Of a stretch of DNA of 38,955 nt, positions 7,282 to 26,222 are shown piece after piece. The notes under the pieces were generated by a model. The model was given only the letters and a program-made list of their open reading frames with translations, searched no databases and was not told the origin of the DNA. The first letter of the stretch is position 1. Every line of letters begins with the position of its first letter. Source of the DNA: Singulisphaera sp. (lineage in GTDB: Bacteria > Planctomycetota > Planctomycetia > Isosphaerales > Isosphaeraceae); assembly GCA_027451445.1 (NCBI GenBank), contig DAIDJG010000564.1, forward strand, positions 1 through 38,955, read 5' to 3'. A program made the translations under genes and the position numbers.

Positions 7282-10200
7282 ATGAGACGCATCGTCGTTC
7301 CAGCACAACCGAGTCCGCGACTCCGTCGTCGGCTGGCCCTTGCACCATGGGTCGAGGGTTTGGAAGTACGCAGCCTGTTGACGGCGTTCCAGGTGATTTC
7401 CGCTGGTGATTCGGGGCCGGGAACGCTGCGCGATGCGATCGCCCAGGTGAACGCCGATGCCAACGATTCACCCTCCGCGCCGGATCAGATCACCTTCGAT
7501 CTACCGGCGGGACAAACGATCGCGCTCGCCTCACCGCTGGTCCTGACGAATCCGGTGGTCATCGATGGGTACACCCAGCCCGGCTCGTCGGAGAACCAGA
7601 CGACGGCAGGTATCAACGAGTTCGAGACCGACGTGGCCGTGATCGCGGTGCACATCGACGGCTCGGGCGCTGCACCGACGGGCGCAGCGCCTGGTCTGAT
7701 CACCATCGCCGCGCCCAACTGCACGATTGACGGACTCAGCATTACCGGCTTTAGCGGTGCCGGTATGGCGCTCCTGCCTCCGCCGAACTCGCCGAACGGT
7801 GCCGTGGGCTCCTTTATCTGGGGCAACTTCATCGGCGTGTCCACATTCGATCCCACGTCCAACGCCCCCTTGCCCATCGTTTCGGCCTCTTCGACTTCGT
7901 ATACCCACCTGAACGCCGAGGGGAACAGCACGGGCATCCTGATCCAGAGTTCCAACAATCGGATCGGCGGAACGGGCCCGATTTTCCGGAACGTGATTCA
8001 GGGCAACCACGGCGACGGGGTTCAAATCACAGGGGCGCCGGGAACCGGGAACGTCGTGGAGGGCGATTTCATCCTCGACAACGACACCAACGGCATCGGC
8101 ATCACAACGTCCAACAACCTGATTGGCGAAGCGATTGGCGCCGGGCCCGGGGGGGGCGGAAACGTCATCTCGGGGAACAATTACGGCGTGGCGATCCTGG
8201 GATCCGTCGCGAGCGGTAACATTCTCGTCAACAATGAAATCGGCACCAACGTCGGGACAGAGGGCGGGATCCTCCGCGGAACCACCCCGCGGCCCAATCA
8301 GTTTGACGGCGTGCTGATTCAAGACGCTCCTGGAAACATCATCGGCGGACTGTCCAATCAGTCGCACAACGTCATCGGCGCCAACGGCCGGGATGGTCTG
8401 ACCATCGAGAACGGCCCGAACCAATCCGCGACAAACAACCTCGTCGAGCAGAACTGGTTCGGCTTCAACAACCGGAGCGGCATCTTCATTTTGCCGAACC
8501 GTGACGGCATCAATATTTCGTCGGCCGACAACACGATCGGCGGGACATCGGCCAAGGCGCGCAACCTGATCACCGACGACGCGCGCAACGGCATCACGAT
8601 TTCGAGCATGACGCTCGATCGGTCGAACCTGAACCCCGTGCCGATCCCGTACGCGAACCCGACGGGTAACCTGGTCGAAGGCAACTTCATCGGGACCATC
8701 GGCGGCGCGGATCACTTCGGTAACGTGCTCGATGGCATCCTGATCGAGGACGCGAGCGGCAACACGGTCGGCGGAACGACGTCGGCCACGGTGAACGTCA
8801 TCTCCGCGAACAACGAGGGCGTCGTCGTCAACGATGACACCGCGGGTCACACCACATCCACGAATAACGTCATCGAGGGGAACTTCATCGGCTTGATGTC
8901 CGATGGTGCCACTCCGCTGCCCAACGCACTCGACGGCGTCCTCCTGGACAACGCGTCCTTCAACACCGTCGGCGGTGCGACGACGGGGACGGCAAACGAG
9001 ATTTCGGGTAACAACAACGGCCTTCACATCACCGGCCCGGGCGCGGTTGACAACCTCGCGGAAGGGAACTTCATCGGGACCGACCTTACGGGCATGATCG
9101 GTGCGCGCAATGCCCAGGCGGGCGTCCTGATCGATGCGGGCGCCTCGAACAACACGATCGGCGGTACGTCCACCGCGACGCGCAACGTCATTTCGGGCAA
9201 CAAATTCGGCGTATCCATCATCGACGCCACATCGACGGGCAACCTCGTCGAAGGAAACTACATCGGTGTGGCGGCCGACGGCGCGACGGGTCTGCCCAAC
9301 TCCGCGGAAGGCATCCTCGTCGACAACGCGGCGAACAACACCATCGGTGGCACGGTCGCTGGCGCGGCAGACGTGCTTTCCGCGAATGGCATCGGCATTC
9401 ATATCACGGGTGCGACCGCATCGGGCAACGTCGTCGAAGGGAACTTCATCGGTACCGACGCAAAGGGTGTCAAGCCGGTTCCCAACTCCGGTGATGGCGT
9501 CTTGATCGACGGGGGCGCGAACAATAACACGATCGGCGGCACCGTGACCGTGGCCGGCAATGTGATCGAGTTCAACGCAGCCAACGGGGTCGATGTGGTT
9601 TTCGGACCGGGGAACGCGATCCTATCGAACCAAATTGACGACAACGCACTCCTGGGGATTGCGCTCTCCGGCTACACTGGTCCGCTGACTGCCTTCACGC
9701 TCGCGAGTGTCGCGTCGGACGGCGTCACCAGCACAGTGATCCAGGGACAGATCACCACGTCGAACACCGGAACGTACCTGCTTCAGTTCTTCAGCAACCC
9801 GCCCAACCCATCACTCAACTACGACTACGAGGGTCAAACGCTGCTCGTTTCGCAGCAGGTCGTGGTGACCACTGCGGGCTCGACACCATTCAGCGTTACA
9901 GTCCCGCAAGCACTCACCGCGGGGCAGGTGGTCACGTTTACGGTTACCGACACCGCGAACTCGACTTCGCAGTTCTCCGCCGGTCAGGCCGTCGTCTCGG
10001 CCACCCAGCCCTCCGTCTACACAGTCACGAATACGAACGACTCGGGTCCTGGCTCACTCCGCCAGGCAATCCTGGACGTCGACCAGCCCCAGAACTTGCT
10101 CCCGACGTTCAACGACAAGATCGTGTTCGCGATCCCGGGGTCGGGTCAGCAGACCATCGAGTTGCTTTCCCCGCTGCCGGCCATCACGAACCCCGTGGCG

Positions 10201-13200
10201 ATCCAGGGGTACACACAATCTGGCTCGTCTCCAAACGCGCCAGTGACGACGATTGTGAATAACGTCCAGCCTGGTGGTGGGATCACGACAACGAACGGGT
10301 CGGGACTGTTCGGCCAGACCACCACCAACACATTTACGGGTCAAACCACTTTCACGTCGGAAAGCACGTTCAACGCGACGATCAATGTTCGCATCGACGG
10401 ACGGCAGGCCGGCACGGGCTCCGTCGGCATGACCCAAGGTCTTCTGACCATCGCCGCGCTGAATTGCCAGGTCAGTGGGCTGAGCATCACCGGCTACAGC
10501 GGCGGGGCGGCGATCCTCATCGCACCGGGCGCGAGCCCCGACAACGGCGGCATCGGCGATGTCATCTTCGGCAACCTGATCGGCGAGGCGTCCTTCAGCG
10601 CGACCAACAACTCGAGCACTCCCATCACCAATCCGTTGGGCAACGCGGAAGGGATCGTGGTCGAGAGTTCGAACAACGTCATCGGCGGCGAGATCCTCAA
10701 CATTGGCGTTCCCCTGCCGACCCAGTTGGCGAGCCAGGGCACACTCGATGTCGTGTCGTCCACAAATGCGATTCAGGGCAACAACGGGCCTGGGCTGGTC
10801 TTCCAGGGCGTGCACGGCACGGGCAACATCGTCGCTGCCAATTTCATTCTCGACAACAAGACGGACGGGGTGCTCGTCAACACCTCCAACAACTTCATCG
10901 GGCAGGCCGGCGCCGGCGAAGGCAACATCATCTCGGGGAACGGGGCGAACGGCGTCCACATCCAGGGCTCGGCCGCCAAGACAAACTACGTCCTGGACGA
11001 CAACATCGGCACGAGTCTCGACGGCGCAAGCGCACGGCCGAACCTCCAAAACGGAGTATTCATCGACGATGCGCCCGGCAATGTGATCTCGGGCAACGTC
11101 ATCGGGTCCAGCGGATTCGATGGCGTGAGCATCCAAAACGGTGTCGCCCAGGACGCGGTCGATAACCTGGTGGAAGGCAACGAGATCGGTTTCAATTCCC
11201 ACCCGAACTCAACCACCCTTGGACAAGGCGGCACTGGCGGCGGCGCCGTGATTCTGCCCAATCGTGACGGTGTGAACATCTCGGCGGCCAACAATACGAT
11301 CGGCGGCTCCACTGCGGGCGCGGCGAATACGATCGTATTCAATTGGCGCAACGGGGTGACCATCTCGAGCACGACTCTCGACTCGCATAACAACGAAGTC
11401 ACGGCGATCGCTAACGCCCAGGCCACTGGGAACGTCGTCATCGGGAACTTTATCGGTAACAACGGCGGCGCTGACGAGGGCAACACGTTGGACGGCGTGC
11501 TCATCAACGCAGCCCCTGGCAATACGATCGGCGGCACGACCACAGGCGACGTCAACGTCATCTCCGGCAACAACGACGGCGTCGTGATCAACGACCCCGC
11601 TTCGATCGGCAATGTCGTGGAAGGCAATATCATCGGACCGATGCAGGACGGAAAGACGGTCCTGAACAACGCCGTCGACGGCATCCGGATCTCGAACGCG
11701 GTTGACAACACGATCGGTGGTACCTCGACAGCCGCCGCGAACGTCATCGCAGGTAACAACTGGGGTGTTCACCTCACGGGACCAGGTGCGCAAGGAAACG
11801 TGGTTGAGGGGAATTTCATCGGGACCGACCGTAGCGGAACCGTAGTGATCCGGAACGAGTTGGACGGCGTGCTGATTGACGGTGGCGCCTCGAATAACAC
11901 GATCGGCGGTGCCATCACTGCCGCCGCCAACATCATCGCGTACAACCTGGGCAACGGGATCAACCTTCAGAACGGCACGGCCGATTCCTTCCTGTCAAAC
12001 CAGATCTTCGCCAACGGCCTTCTCGGCATCGCGATTGCCACCACCCCACCGATTCCCAACGACAACCAGGCCCCGCCGTCTTTGGTCTCCGCCATCTCGG
12101 ATGGTTCGGGCAGTACCGTGATTAGCGGCAACGTGACGAGCGTGGCTCGATCGACGGTGCTACTCCAGTTCTTCAGCAATCCCGCGAATCCATCAAGCAA
12201 CTACAGCTACGAAGGTCAGACGTTACTCGGCTCGCAGACGATCACGACCAACGGATCGGGCACGGCAAACTTCTCCGTCACCGTCGCAACGCCGGTCCCG
12301 CTTGGCGATTACGTGACCGCCACCATCACGGCACCTGACGGCTCGACGTCGCAGTTCTCGGTCGGCCAGGTCGTGACCGCGACACCGCAGGTGGCGACGT
12401 TCACGGTCACGAACATCAACGACTCCGGACCGGGCTCGTTCCGCCAGGCTATTCTCGATGCCAACGCCCACCCGAACATCGCCCCATCGGTCCCCGACCT
12501 CATCAACTTTGCGATTCCGGGCCAAGGCCAGCAGACCATCACCCTGCTCTCACCCTTGCCGAACATCACGGACCCGGTGAACATCGACGGGTACACCCAA
12601 CCAGGCTCCTCGCTCAACAAGACGCCATTGGGATTGGACGAGAAAGAAACGGACGTCGCCGTGCTGAATGTTCAGATCAACGGTCTCAATGCACTGCCGC
12701 CACAGGGCTCCAGCGGACCGGTGAACGGCCTGGTGATCGACGCGCCCAACACCACGGTCTCAGGGCTGAGCATCACCGGCTTCACCGGCGCCGGCATTGT
12801 CCTCGAGCCGCCGCCGGGAACACCGACGGGAACGGTCGGCGACATCATCTTTGGCAACTTCATCGGCATCGCCTCGTTCGATTCGCACAGCTTCAATGAC
12901 CTACCATTGGGAACGACCACTCCAACCTCTTACACGCACATCAACACGCTCGGAAATGGCCAGGGCATCGTCGTCCTCAATTCAAACAATCGGATCGGCG
13001 GCACGCTCCCGCAAGAACGCAACGTGATCCAGGGCAACCATGGCGACGGCGTGTTCCTCTCCGGACCTCAAGGAACCGGTACGCTGGTCGAAGGGAACTT
13101 CATCCTGGATAACGACGCCAATGGCGTGCACGTCACGAACTCGAACAACCTGATCGGCGAGCCGATCGGCGCGGGTCCGGCCGGTGGCGGCAACGTCATT

Positions 13201-16200
13201 TCCGGGAACAATTACGGCGTCGCCATCATTGGACTCGCCGCAAAGGGAAATATCCTCACCAATAATGAGATTGGTACGGATATCGGGCTTGCCGGCCAGA
13301 CGATCCGAGGCCTGGATCCACGACCCAACCGATTCGACGGCGTTCTGATCCAGGATGCGCCGGGCAATGTTATCGGCGGCCTCCTCGACAACTCCAAGAA
13401 CGTCATCGCCGCGAATGGACTCGATGGCATTAACATCGAGAACGTCGCGGCCCAAACGGCCACCAACAACATCGTCCAGGGCGACTGGATCGGGTTCAAC
13501 ATCCGCAATAACGTCGTCTCGATCCTGCCGAACCGCGATGGTATCAACATCTCGTCGGCGAACAACACGATCGGCGGTACGACCGCCACGGCGCGCAACG
13601 TCATCATCAACAACTCGCGCAACGGCATCACGATCACCAGTCAGTCGCTTGACACGTCGAACCTGAACCCCGTGCCGATCCCGAACGCACAGCCGACGGG
13701 CAACGTCGTCGACGGGAACTACATCGGCACTCAGGGGGGTGCCGACCACTACGGCAATACGTTCGCGGGCGTCTTCATCGAAGACGCGACCGACAACACG
13801 ATCGGCGGCACCACCGCGGGCGCTCAGAACGTGATCTCGTCCAACAACGACGGTGTCGTCATCAACGATTCCGGCTCGGCCGGCAATGTCGTGGACGGGA
13901 ACCTGATCGGCACGATGTCGGACGGCGTGACGGCGTTGTCCAACGCCGTGGACGGCGTCCTCATCGCCAACGCACTCGACAACACCGTCGGCGGCACCAC
14001 CGGGGGCGCAGCGAACGTGATCTCCGGAAACAACGTCGGTGTCCACATCACCGGCGCCCTGGCGACGGGCAACGCGGTCGAGGGCAACTTCATCGGTTCC
14101 GACGCGACCGGCAAAATCCAGGTCCACAACTCGACCGACGGCGTGCTCTTCGATAGCAACGCGTCGAACAACACCGTGGGTGGCACCGTCAGCGGAGCCG
14201 GGAACACGATCGCCTTCAACGTGGCAAGCGGCGTTGCGGTCGCGTCGGGGACGGGCGACTCGATCCTGACGAACTCGATCTACTCGAACGACCGCATCGG
14301 CATCGACCTGATCGCGCCCGGCGACCCGCCGAACGGTGTCACCCCGAATCACACGGGCGTTGCCAACGGCCCGAACGACCTGGTGAACTACCCGACGTTG
14401 ACGTTCGCGACGTCCGATGGCACCAGCACCACGACCGTTCAAGGCACGTACAGCGGCATGCCGAACTCGACATTGCTCGTTCAGTTCTTCTCCAATGATG
14501 CCGCGGACCCCTCCGGCTTCGGACAGGGCCAGGCGTTTATTGGCTCGACGCAGATCACAACGGACGCCTCGGGTAACGCAACGTTCAACGCGAGCTTGAA
14601 ATCAGTGGTCCTGAACGGCCAGTTCATCAGCTCCACCGCCACGGCGCCCAACGGCTCGACCTCGGAATTCTCTAACTCCATCCCCACCGTCCCGGTCAAC
14701 ATCGGCTTCAGCGCTTCGTCGTATTCGGTCGATCAGACCGCCGGTTCGATTACGATCCTGGTCACGCGGGACCACGCCGGAGACGGTGGAACCGTGATGG
14801 TCAATTATGCGACTGGTGGCGGAACGGCCGTTGCCGGAATGAATTACACGTCCGTCTCGGGCACGCTGACATTCGACCCCGGCGTGGACAATCAGACGTT
14901 CGTGGTACCGATCCTCAATAACCCCGTTGTTGGGCCGTCGACGACCGTCAACTTGACCTTGAGCGATCCGACCGCCGGCGTGACCATCACGCCTCCGAAT
15001 CCCGTTGTTCTCACCATCCAGAACAACAACGTTCCTCAGGCCGAATTCAGCGCTGCCAGCTATGCGGTGAGCGAGAGCGGAGGGACGGTCACAGTAAGCG
15101 TCACGCGCAACACGCCGACCGGCAGCGCCTCCGTCGCCTACGCCACGAGCGACGGCACGGCTCAGGCGGGCGTGAACTACACCGCCGAGAGCGGTACGCT
15201 GACCTTCAACCCAGGTCAGACGGTCGAGTCGTTCAAAGTCCCGATCATCGACACGCACACGACCGGCGGCGGGATCGTGACCGTGAACCTGACCCTGAGC
15301 AACCCGTCAGGGCTCAGCCTCGGCACGCCGAGCACCGCCGTGGTGAACATCAAGCAGGACGACACGGCGGGTACGCTCCAGTTCAATTCCGTCTCCTACT
15401 CCGTCGTCGACACCGACCCCTCCGCACTGATCACGGTGCAACGCCTGGCCGGAATCGGAGGAACGGTGACGATCAACTACGCGACGGGCCTGGGGACGGC
15501 CGTACCGGGACAGGACTACGCCCCGGTCAGCGGCACGCTCACCTTCCTCGCCGGCCAGACGGTCCAGACTTTCTCCGTGCCGATCTTGAACCATAGCCTC
15601 ACGAACCTTGTCACCCTGCCGCTGACTCTCAGCAACCCGACGGGCGGGGCTGTTTTGGGAATGGCCAACCAGGCCACGCTCACGATCGCGCCGAACACCA
15701 CGCTGCCGGTCGTTCGCGCGGGCAACTTCCCCGGCCCGGTGGTGGAGAACCTCCAGCCCTTCACCAACGGTCAGGCGATCACCGGCGTGCTCCTGACGTT
15801 CAACGAGGCCCTGAACACCACCCGCGCTCAGACCTTGTCGAACTACGGCTCTTACTTCCTGACCGCCGGTCCCGATAGCATCTTTGGGACGGGCGACGAT
15901 GGCAGCGACCTGATCGCTTCCGCGCAGTACAACCCCTCGACGTTCCAGGTCTTGCTGACACCGAGGTTCCCGCTGCCGCTGAACACGATCGTCAAACTGG
16001 CCATCAACACCCAGGCCAGCGTCGCGCTCCAGACGGGCATCACGGATGCCAACGGGGTTCTCCTCGACGGTGTCAACAACGGGCAGTCCGGAACGCCCTA
16101 CGTGTCGGAGTTCGGCATCGGCGCGCGGCTTCAGTACATCGACGCGGCACTCAACCAGGTCACGCTCAACTTGAATAAAGGCGGGTTGATGTCGTTGAAC

Positions 16201-17742: not shown

Positions 17743-18301
17743 AGTATTTCACCCATCCCTGACGCCGCCCCAAGAACTCGGGCAAGGCCTTACTCGGCGA
17801 ACGGGATGTCTCGCCCAGGTGGAGAAGACGCCGAACGGCCGCTCAGTCCTGACTCACATTGAGTGGAGCTTGGAATCTGCGCGTACGTCGAAGAACCGGG
17901 CAACCTGCGAGAAGGGGAGTCGGACGACTCAAAAACGTCGCGGGAGATTTACTCTTTTAGGGGAAGTGCGTCAATGTCGATCGAGAATTGACAATTGTCT
18001 TTGTCCCGTTAGGGACATTTGACAATAGCCCAGCGTTTTAACGCTGGGTCTGACCAAACGACCCCGACCCGCTTCTCTCTTGCCCCGCAGGGGCGATCAC
18101 ACGCGAATGCGCCGTCCCTCCGGGACGGGAGTTAATTTCGGTCCAATCGGATCCCAGCGTTAAAACGCTGGGCTATTGTCAAATGTCCCTACGGGACAAA
18201 GACCATCTGGCACGCACCGATCTTGCCGCGCATGGACGTTCAAAAACCACGGTTCAAGATCAATTCTTCGCCACGCGAGAGCGAGGCATCGCGCTGTCGG
18301 G
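17743..18301. other. Intergenic region dominated by a nested palindrome
   Basis: This 559-base gap lies between the start of the SGNH-type gene and the stop of the redoxin-heme gene, both on the minus strand. It contains the large inverted repeat at 17997-18203, described separately. The stretch 17743-17990 should hold the SGNH gene promoter, but I could not pick a convincing one. No protein-coding gene was found. Confidence 0.5.
17997..18203. repeat. 207-bp composite palindrome with 51-52 bp inverted arms
   Basis: The left arm (17997-18048) and right arm (18153-18203) are reverse complements apart from a single-base indel. Each arm contains two hairpins of its own: TGTCCC/GGGACA (18002-18017 and 18184-18198) and CCCAGCGTT/AACGCTGGG with a two-base loop (18029-18048, mirrored at 18153-18172). 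The spacer holds two more, GCCCC/GGGGC (18082-18094) and CCGTCCC/GGGACGG (18112-18128). The whole is a six-hairpin element of the kind scattered between planctomycete genes. There is no coding potential. Confidence 0.85.
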
Positions 18302-20276: not shown

Positions 20277-20450
20277 AGAGTCTGTCCCAGAAGTCCCGGG
20301 AGCGTGGATATGGGGACTGGCTCCGGCCGTCTTCGGACGGTGCCTGTCCCCATATCCACGCCCGCTCCGCCGGAAAAGGGGGACAGGCACCTCGAAGACT
20401 TGGAGCCAGTCCCCCTTTTCCGGCTCCGCTCCACTTCCAGGACAGACTCT
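20277..20450. repeat. Inverted pair of REP-like hairpins (BIME-like)
   Basis: There are two perfect 15-bp stems. The first is CGTGGATATGGGGAC (20303-20317) with its complement at 20346-20360. The second is CCGGAAAAGGGGGAC (20370-20384) with its complement at 20409-20423. The loop edges of the first (TGGCTCC ... GGTGCCT) reappear reverse-complemented in the second (AGGCACC ... GGAGCCA), so the two hairpins are inverted copies of one family. An outer stem AGAGTCTGTCC (20277-20287) with GGACAGACTCT (20440-20450) encloses both. This is the organisation of bacterial interspersed mosaic elements built from REP sequences. Confidence 0.8.
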
Positions 20451-24531: not shown

Positions 24532-25217
24532 AGTTCGGCTCCCCCAATAACATTGTCAAACGCCGGTCCGAACCCGCGGAAACCAGCGGAAGCGAGCGAT
24601 TCGCATCGAGCATTGATGCATTACAGTCTACTTTACGCCGATCCGAAAGGGGGCGTCAAGCGGGTCGGTACACTCGTATGTTCCGCGTTTTTTGCGATCG
24701 GGATGGCTTCTGGCCGGCACAAACACCCTTGCGGAAACCGTGGTCGTTTGAGGACACCCCTCGCTCATCACCATCAGGGCCTTGTGGACGAGTGGACCAG
24801 GCGGCCGGGGAAAAGCCCGCGCAGCGGGCGGGCCTCAGAGGCGCGAAGGACCTCCGTGGCACGCTCGCCCTGCGGGCTCGCTTTGCCCCGGCCGCCCCGG
24901 GTCGCAATCCATCAACCCGACGTGGTGTTCCGCGAGAAGTCTCATCCTGTGGGTGGCCGGGGCAGAGGAGGCCGACAGGCCGACGTGCCCCGGAAGCGCC
25001 GGGCCGCGCACTGGCCGCCCCTGCCTCCTGTTTGGGCGTACTCACTGGCGAGCGCTCAGAGACAATGGCCGATCTGGGTGGCTGCCGGACGCGCTCTCAG
25101 CGAGGAAAGATGCACTGACATGCTGGCCCTGAGCCCAAACCGCGTGTAACCTCAACACGAAGGCTGGCCGGAGCCATATCTTGAATCTCCCGCGCGACGA
25201 TTCCGGGTTGTCCTTTC
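24532..25217. other. Intergenic region with GC-rich repeat units
   Basis: This 686-base region lies between the TPR gene (minus) and the RAYT pseudogene (plus). The first ~150 bases are AT-richer and should carry the TPR operon promoter, but no clear -35/-10 pair was found. From about 24800 the sequence is built of GC-rich repeats. One unit (24803-24840, GGCCGGGGAAAAGC...) resembles, in opposite orientation, the outer part of the left arm of the inverted repeat that starts at 24848. Open frames across this stretch follow the repeat on both strands and look spurious. Confidence 0.5.
24848..24997. repeat. Left arm of ~150-bp inverted repeat flanking the RAYT pseudogene
   Basis: The arm begins GGACCTCCGTGGC and ends TGCCCCGGAAGC. 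It matches the reverse complement of 25926-26073 with about six substitutions and a two-base gap by eye, and weaker similarity continues a further ~15 bases inward. The arm contains two different GC-rich palindromic subunits separated by a less structured ~50-base stretch. Confidence 0.88.
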
Positions 25218-25793
25218 ATGAGTTCAAAGCGTCCCAGGCGCCGGACTTACAACGAGCCGGGTCACGCGCACGAGTTGACCTTCAGTTGCTATCACAGGTA
25301 CAAGTTCCTCGTCGCGGAATGGACTTGCCTCTGGCTGGCGGAGGCAATCGAGACGGCAAGAGTGAAATCGGATGTTGCCTTATAGGCGTACGTGTTTATG
25401 CCCGAGCACGTCCACCTGATCATCTGGCCTCGTCAGCCGGTTTACGAGATGGAATTGATCCTGCGTGCAATCAAGGAGCCCGTCGGGCGTCGCGCGTCGT
25501 CGTATCTCGCTCGGCATGCTCCGGAGTGGCTTCCGCGCATCACTCAGCGTCGCGGAGGCCGGACCGAGCGGCACTTCTGGCAGCCCGGCCCCGGTTGCGA
25601 TCGCAATATCATCGAACCGAGAACCTTGTCGGCGATGATCGACTACATTCACCTCAACCCGGTGCGTCGTGGGTTGGTGGAGCGGGCACGCGATTGGCGT
25701 TGGTCGAGCGCGGCATGGTTCGAGGGTCAGGAGGGCAGCGTAATTGTTCCAGACGCGATTCCCCCTGAGTGGACAGCATGGCAGGACCGGTAA
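25218..25793 (+). pseudogene. REP-associated tyrosine transposase (RAYT, Y1/HUH) broken by an amber codon
   Basis: Reading from ATG 25218 gives 55 codons of RAYT N-terminus (NEPGHAHELTFSCYHRYKFL ...), an in-frame TAG at 25383-25385, and then the rest of the family in the same frame: AYVFMPEHVHLIIWP with the HxH metal site of the HUH motif, and MIDYIHLNPVRRGLVERARD with the candidate catalytic Tyr. The stop is TAA at 25791-25793. The usual residue at the interruption is Trp (as in LWAYV), so a single TGG-to-TAG change explains the break. No frameshift is needed. RAYT proteins are single-strand endonuclease/transposase-like enzymes linked to the spread of REP palindromes. GTG 25392 or ATG 25398 could restart translation and keep the HUH and Tyr parts. 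The gene is enclosed by a ~150-bp inverted repeat. Confidence 0.85.
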
Positions 25794-26222
25794 GCCAACC
25801 TCGATCCCGAGGTGCCGGGGTACGAAAACCTCGTAAGCGCTCACAAGTTCGTGCATCAAAACAGCGAGCTGGGGTGGCCGGTGCAGACGGAAGCGCATCG
25901 TTACGGTCCCGGTACGCGACTCGGGGCTTCCGGGGCACGTCGGCCTGTCGGCCTCCTCTGCCCCGGCCACCCACATGATGAGACGTCTCGCCGAACAACC
26001 TCGGGTTGATGGATTGCGACCCGGGGTGGCCGGGGCAAAGCGAGCCCGCAGGGCGAGCGGGCCACGGAGGTCCCGATGATCGCTGTTTCGCTGCCGAGCG
26101 CGCGAGTAGAATGCGTGAAGAGCGCGGCGAGGAGCGGCGCCGGCGAAACACGATCATAGCATGTCATCAACGAATCCGCGTAACGGCCAGGAGATCGGCC
26201 CAAGACCGGGAGGTCGGAGATC
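25794..26222. other. Intergenic region holding the right repeat arm and a second stem
   Basis: This 429-base gap lies between the RAYT pseudogene and the PIG-L gene. It contains the right arm of the inverted repeat (25926-26073) and, directly outside it, an imperfect stem: ATGATCGCTGTTTCGC (26076-26091) with GCGAAACACGATCAT (26143-26157), one base bulged, loop about 50 bases. The PIG-L promoter must lie in or after this. No gene is seen. Confidence 0.5.
25926..26073. repeat. Right arm of ~150-bp inverted repeat flanking the RAYT pseudogene
   Basis: This is the reverse complement of 24848-24997 at roughly 95% identity by eye. It contains a two-level palindrome: an outer stem CCGGGGCA (25930-25937) with TGCCCCGG (25959-25966) and an inner stem GGCC (25942-25945) with GGCC (25950-25953). 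A second GC-rich unit lies at its outer end (AAGCGAGCCCGCAGGGCGAG). The arms are 928 bases apart and the RAYT pseudogene is the only gene between them. Confidence 0.88.

Follow-up and report, generated by a model that had tools for sequence, protein, structure and literature searches.

Interrupted RAYT gene between composite inverted REP arms, and REP pairs within MITE-like elements, in a planctomycete genome

RAYT gene and its inverted arms

The window, by which we mean the whole stretch of 38,955 nucleotides analyzed here, lies on contig C564 of a draft genome of 10.88 Mb (622 contigs, 4.8% contamination), whose host is an Isosphaeraceae-type planctomycete. On its forward strand, positions 25218-25793 hold a frame of 191 codons for a RAYT (TnpA-REP), identified by its match to a family profile and by aligned homologues. 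The frame is open except for a single in-frame TAG at codon 56 (25383-25385, forward strand), as a first-pass annotation of the same DNA had read it. With the stop entered as X, the frame scores 88.6 bits against the NCBIfam model NF047646, REP-associated tyrosine transposase (cut-off 80), and the fragment of 133 residues that begins at 25392 scores 60.2 bits, under the cut-off. The Pfam Y1_Tnp score of the frame, 20.8 bits, is also under its cut-off of 23, and a profile of the RAYT relatives matches the solved structure of E. coli TnpA-REP, 4er8, with an E value of 1.1e-7.

The motifs of the family are all present on the forward strand. The HUH motif, here His-Val-His, occupies codons 64-66 (25407-25415), so that the amber codon precedes it by eight codons; WQ lies at codon 121, and the predicted catalytic Tyr is codon 143 (25644-25646) within DYIHLNP, aligned with the Tyr of DYIYINP in the E. 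coli enzyme, whose catalytic residue is Y115 (PMC8266576). HUH, WQ, and YIHxNP are conserved across the aligned homologues. At codon 56, all seven homologues of alignment A1 have Trp, the residue that had been expected at the amber site of intact relatives.

The nearest homologues are approximately 57 to 66% identical, and the relatives of this RAYT are mainly planctomycete. We found no second close RAYT elsewhere in the host genome; the gene is thus single copy, unlike IS200/IS605 transposases. Contig C28 (L032, 283-1290) encodes an intact but distant Y1-type protein of 335 residues with NHLH and YIHLNP motifs and a long C-terminal extension. Assigned by eye on motif and length, it resembles subclass 2.1, which is listed without associated REPs (PMC6006769), and it could in principle act on REPs. 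Among the homologues, one (L033, genome G011) has Asp at the position of the conserved catalytic Tyr (IDDVHQNP) in a frame that is otherwise open.

The gene is enclosed by inverted arms. Two pairs, 24926-25014 with 25909-25997 (89 nt, 91%) and 24848-24926 with 25995-26073 (79 nt, 95%), form one continuous inverted pair of approximately 165 bp around the RAYT, which bears out the earlier description of a long inverted repeat. The left arm (24848-25014, forward strand) consists of a hairpin, h2, a spacer, and a second hairpin, h3, and is 91 to 95% complementary to the right arm (25909-26073, reverse strand), defined by inverted-repeat alignment. Two palindromic subunits per arm had been recognized before, and they correspond to h2 and h3. 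Folded as DNA, the arm at 24848-24997 gives -48.9 kcal/mol (z = -5.0 against dinucleotide shuffles).

Hairpin h3 reads GGGTGG followed by CCGGGGCA...TGCCCCGG. Its left copy is at 24951-24993 (forward strand, fold z = -3.44) and its right copy at 25930-25972 (reverse strand, z = -3.21). The two hairpins are identical, with GTGG directly at the foot of the stem, so that the RAYT indeed lies between inverted REP-type palindromes with a foot of the GT[AG]G type, as in a REPtron. Inverted-repeat pairing also revealed a degenerate REP head, GGGTGGCCGGTGCAGA, at 25872-25887 (forward strand).

Outside h3, the arms are composite. On the left lies a complete element of a type that we call A (24753-24943), which aligns with eight dispersed copies of approximately 187 bp. 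It consists, in order, of an outer terminal repeat, (G)ACACCCCTCGCTCATCACCA, hairpin h1 (24800-24833, forward strand), hairpin h2 (24854-24898, reverse strand), and an inner terminal repeat, ...GTTCCGCGAGAAGTCTC. Both hairpins are REP-like; h1 is degenerate here, its dispersed copies reading GGGTGGCCGGGGAAAAGCCCGCGCAGCGGGCGTGCCCCGG. On the right, a truncated type A element (25980-26075, forward strand) retains the inner terminal repeat GAGACGTCTCGCCGAACA, the spacer, and a degenerate REP-like h2 (26024-26067, forward strand, from inverted-repeat and fold analysis), without h1 or the outer end. Only the left arm therefore extends outward, to about 24753, and so includes one more hairpin and a terminal inverted repeat; the right lacks both. 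The stem of h2 carries CCGTGGC in both arms versus CCGGGGC in the dispersed copies. This shared mutation is better explained by duplication or conversion in place than by separate arrival of the two arms. A local inverted duplication or gene conversion is also in keeping with how nearly identical the arms are. Of the two origins offered for this by the first-pass annotation, gene conversion fits; movement as a mobile unit is not supported.

Dispersed arm parts and the 181-bp elements

The complete 150-bp arm was not found elsewhere in the host genome; it is full length only at the two local copies, and we rejected the whole arm as a dispersed repeat. Its parts are dispersed, with eight copies of approximately positions 1-96, two of 78-149, and at least 29 of 99-150. 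Because contigs of this fragmented assembly break inside repeats, these copy numbers are approximate. No arm copies were found in seven genomes of relatives. Since the complete arm occurs nowhere else, and only one close RAYT is present, the mobile cassette that had been proposed is not supported. The dispersed copies that would have spoken for mobilization exist only as parts, and these lie mostly in 181-bp elements with terminal repeats and target duplications of their own, and hence give no sign of movement driven by the RAYT.

Type A elements hold the h2 half at eight sites; full ones measure approximately 187 bp, and the terminal repeats are imperfect and approximately 23 bp long. One of them (L006) shows a target duplication, of 8 to 9 bp; it is the only one to do so. 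Two of these sites, on contigs C160 (L212) and C368 (L213), also have h3 next to the type A element; relative to the left arm of the window, the order is circularly permuted, and GAGACTTCTCGCCGAACA stands at both ends as a direct repeat. The REP pattern GGGTGGCCGGGGN{8,34}CCCCGG has 115 matches in the host genome, compared to 0 to 4 in eight relatives and none in the reversed control of the host genome. The dispersal of REPs is species-specific, and, as in REPtrons, related REPs are spread over the genome, here mostly within MITE-like elements.

These elements carry the h3 half. Many of them are 181 bp long with ends CCTGGCGCCYAACAG, and their terminal inverted repeat, CCTGGCGCCYAACAGWTYGTGCG, has 109 matches at up to 3 mismatches in the genome and 0 in the control; such ends are a feature of MITEs. 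The 32 distinct 181-bp elements that we examined have a mean pairwise identity of 93.7%. Exact 8-bp target duplications flank 21 of the 32, and 5 more agree at 7 of 8 positions; the duplicated sequences are 75% A+T, and a control with shifted flanks had no match at 7 or more of the 8 positions. Each element is nearly palindromic and contains two inverted REP-like hairpins, the second being an inverted relative of the first. The h3 that flanks the RAYT matches the consensus h3 of the MITEs at 41 of 43 positions. Conservation within the set is 0.99 for the hairpins versus 0.945 for the ends, a comparison to be read with the fact that the set was selected in part on hairpin similarity. Three further elements (L233, L236, and L238) keep the CCTGGCGCC ends around different internal GTGG hairpins, the element in L233 measuring 194 bp. 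Except for weak partial matches in G026, a search of the other 44 genomes of the family did not reveal the 181-bp element.

Terminal repeats together with 8-bp duplications are a mark of DDE-type transposition, and IS200/IS605-type enzymes move single-stranded DNA without target duplications. By analogy, REPs moved by the RAYT of the locus should travel in single-stranded form and leave no such duplications. The terminal repeats and duplications thus suggest that a DDE-type transposase, and not the RAYT, probably carried most of this genome's REP pairs to their sites as cargo. The type of the mover is judged from the structure of the ends, because ten other repeat-bearing regions, where contigs often break inside elements, yielded no recognizable autonomous transposase with CCTGGCGCC as its terminal repeat.

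Origin of the REPs and of the interrupted gene

Hairpins accompany related RAYTs as well. At 102 homologue loci, 316 hairpin ends lie within 500 bp of the gene compared to 53 further out, an excess of approximately six times. The commonest tetranucleotides at the foot are GTGC (21 loci), GTGG (16 loci), and GGTG (12 loci), the last of which is probably the same motif shifted by one base. This suggests that GTGG and GTGC serve as guide tetranucleotides of this planctomycete RAYT group. The canonical guide is GT[AG]G (PMC6006769); the GTGC foot was found at none of the distal control flanks and may be a guide variant outside that consensus. In genome G024, whose RAYT is intact, the REPs form dimers without evident terminal repeats, as judged by eye at a few loci. 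Because relatives that lack the MITE have comparable hairpins beside their RAYTs, an origin of the REPs before the MITE is favored.

Taken as a whole, the following account is in our view the likely one. The locus would be a planctomycete REPtron, since inverted hairpins with a GTGG foot flank the gene and related RAYTs have comparable hairpins: inverted REP hairpins with a 5'-GTGG guide at the foot enclose a single RAYT, which is a single-strand DNA transposase of the HUH/Tyr type. By analogy with the TnpA-REP proteins of E. coli, Stenotrophomonas, and Marinomonas, the intact enzyme would bind single-stranded DNA at the folded, GTGG-tagged hairpin and introduce a nick next to it. A GTGG guide is reported to direct cleavage at CC (PMC8266576), and a GTGG foot would accordingly predict a cut at CC. 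One amber codon would have disabled the gene, probably recently. The long arms would have arisen when REP h3 was joined to a type A paired-hairpin element, and the composite would then have been duplicated in inverted orientation, with conversion maintaining the likeness of the copies. In other parts of the genome, REP hairpins would persist mostly as inverted pairs inside 181-bp elements, as DDE-moved cargo.

The gene itself is probably a recent pseudogene, in line with the newly inactivated unit that the first-pass annotation had offered as one possibility. One nonsense codon interrupts it and the catalytic residues are kept, and the amber is presumably recent because it is the sole defect. 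The same features would fit an error of assembly or base calling in an intact, working RAYT whose REPs spread in the manner of REPINs: one substitution separates the sequence from an open frame, all catalytic motifs are kept, and the assembly is a draft of 622 contigs with 4.8% contamination. We consider such an error unlikely. In approximately 180 homologue loci in which stops were mapped, from sets that overlap in part, stops are spread along the whole gene in 16 loci besides the window, and several more loci carry frameshifts. Disruption is thus common in this gene family, and a genuine stop would come as no surprise. Moreover, were the RAYT intact, most REP pairs would still be enclosed by terminal repeats and 8-bp target duplications unlike the products of an IS200/IS605-type enzyme.

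Type A ends in inverted orientation face each other across the h3-RAYT-h3 segment, which raises the possibility that two such elements flank and move it as a composite mobile unit. In the same-genus genome G001, upstream similarity stops at 24665, approximately 90 bp before the left element, which speaks for it. However, the segment has one copy, with no second REP-RAYT-REP arrangement; part of the right element is missing, and the outer ends show no target duplication. G001 also lacks the right-hand neighbor gene and so offers no clean empty site for comparison. We regard this composite unit as quite improbable. We hold it to be highly improbable that the hairpins belonged originally to the 181-bp MITE family and that the RAYT came to lie between two of them by accident. 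MITE-borne copies are far more numerous than those flanking the RAYT, but many related planctomycete RAYTs are flanked by hairpins with a GTGG or GTGC foot, and the family genomes that were searched lack the MITEs.

In two Aquisphaera-type genomes, the second RAYT copies, those of Aquisphaera insulae (G033, L054) and of G024 (L055), are broken at or just after the codon-56 Trp, the former by TGA at codon 56 and the latter by a 1-nt deletion a few codons later, and the first copies of both genomes are intact. At codon 56, 3 stops were seen compared to 0.85 expected when codons are weighted by their proneness to nonsense mutation (nominal P of approximately 0.05), and three stops at some single codon arose by chance in 39% of simulations. 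The test counted one contig of 10,702 bp twice (L126 is L173); with the correction the nominal P is approximately 0.04 and the conclusion is unchanged. Since the stops are scattered and their clustering is not significant once any codon is allowed for, the amber looks like ordinary decay, and programmed recoding at codon 56 was dropped as unneeded. A functional amber, whether by programmed readthrough or in a split gene whose HUH/Tyr part restarts at GTG 25392 or ATG 25398, is scarcely credible: it could cite the TGA at the same codon in L054 and L191 (G211) and the nearby deletion in L055, but such clustering is within chance, L191 is also frameshifted, and most homologues are open at codon 56. 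The working 3' fragment that had been suggested from these two starts is unlikely because it would miss the first 55 residues of an otherwise conserved domain.

Comparison with known REP systems

As in described REPtrons (PMC3733652, PMC6006769), there is one RAYT per genome with HUH and Tyr motifs, inverted hairpins with a GT[AG]G foot lie on both sides, and species-specific REPs are dispersed. Unlike them, the gene here is interrupted, the arms are longer and composite, and the dispersed REPs lie mainly in MITEs with terminal repeats. TIRtrons, with their TIRYTs and composite TIRs (PMC3733652), are similar in having long inverted repeats around a RAYT and a REP joined to another palindromic element, as in P. 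putida ppf 607 and P. fluorescens pfs 4255, where degenerated REPs are joined to unrelated stem-loops (PMC3733652). The repeats of a typical TIRYT are unrelated to REPs, however, whereas both arm components here are GTGG-type REP hairpins, and in this the locus departs from a TIRtron. RAYTs with long inverted repeats, including degenerate REPs and stem-loops, and REP dimers nested in palindromes were described in 2013 (PMC3733652), and the locus therefore belongs to a known kind. It is an unremarkable REPtron whose gene is interrupted, and the MITE-borne REPs are the interesting part.

REPINs likewise consist of two inverted REPs dispersed over a genome (PMC3116915), whereas terminal repeats and 8-bp target duplications enclose the pairs here. 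In their terminal inverted repeats, A+T-rich 8-bp duplications, and multiple copies, the 181-bp elements resemble MITEs, the nonautonomous DDE-type elements (PMC6382973, PMC10969869), from which they differ in carrying two inverted GTGG-tagged REP hairpins. The GTAG-15 REP dimers of A. variabilis (PMC3733652) are also nested inside a longer inverted repeat; the elements here differ in that target duplications were tested for and found. Among the open-access articles covered by a brief literature search, we met none that describes REP pairs as part of elements whose target duplications can be demonstrated.

Strains of E. coli without a RAYT keep REPINs, though fewer (PMC8049555). Because most REP pairs of this genome lie in elements whose target duplications are clear, one concrete route by which REPs could persist without a working RAYT is transport by an unrelated transposase. 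Tentatively, and with somewhat more doubt than conviction, we propose that the REP family has changed its vehicle: the RAYT may be dead or dispensable, and REP pairs may now multiply as cargo of a DDE-type miniature transposon. If so, REP populations could outlive the loss of their own transposase and even grow after it.

Other repeats occur in the window. At 18010-18191, a perfect 39-bp inverted repeat (TAGGGACATTTGACAATAGCCCAGCG...) with 104 bp between its halves resembles a further small element, and a cluster of inverted repeats of 25 to 28 bp surrounds GGAGCGTGGATATGGGGACTGGCTCC at 20299-20427. From 7700 to 14240, a degenerate repeated motif, translated roughly as NNTIGGT..ANVI, probably encodes a repetitive surface-type protein.
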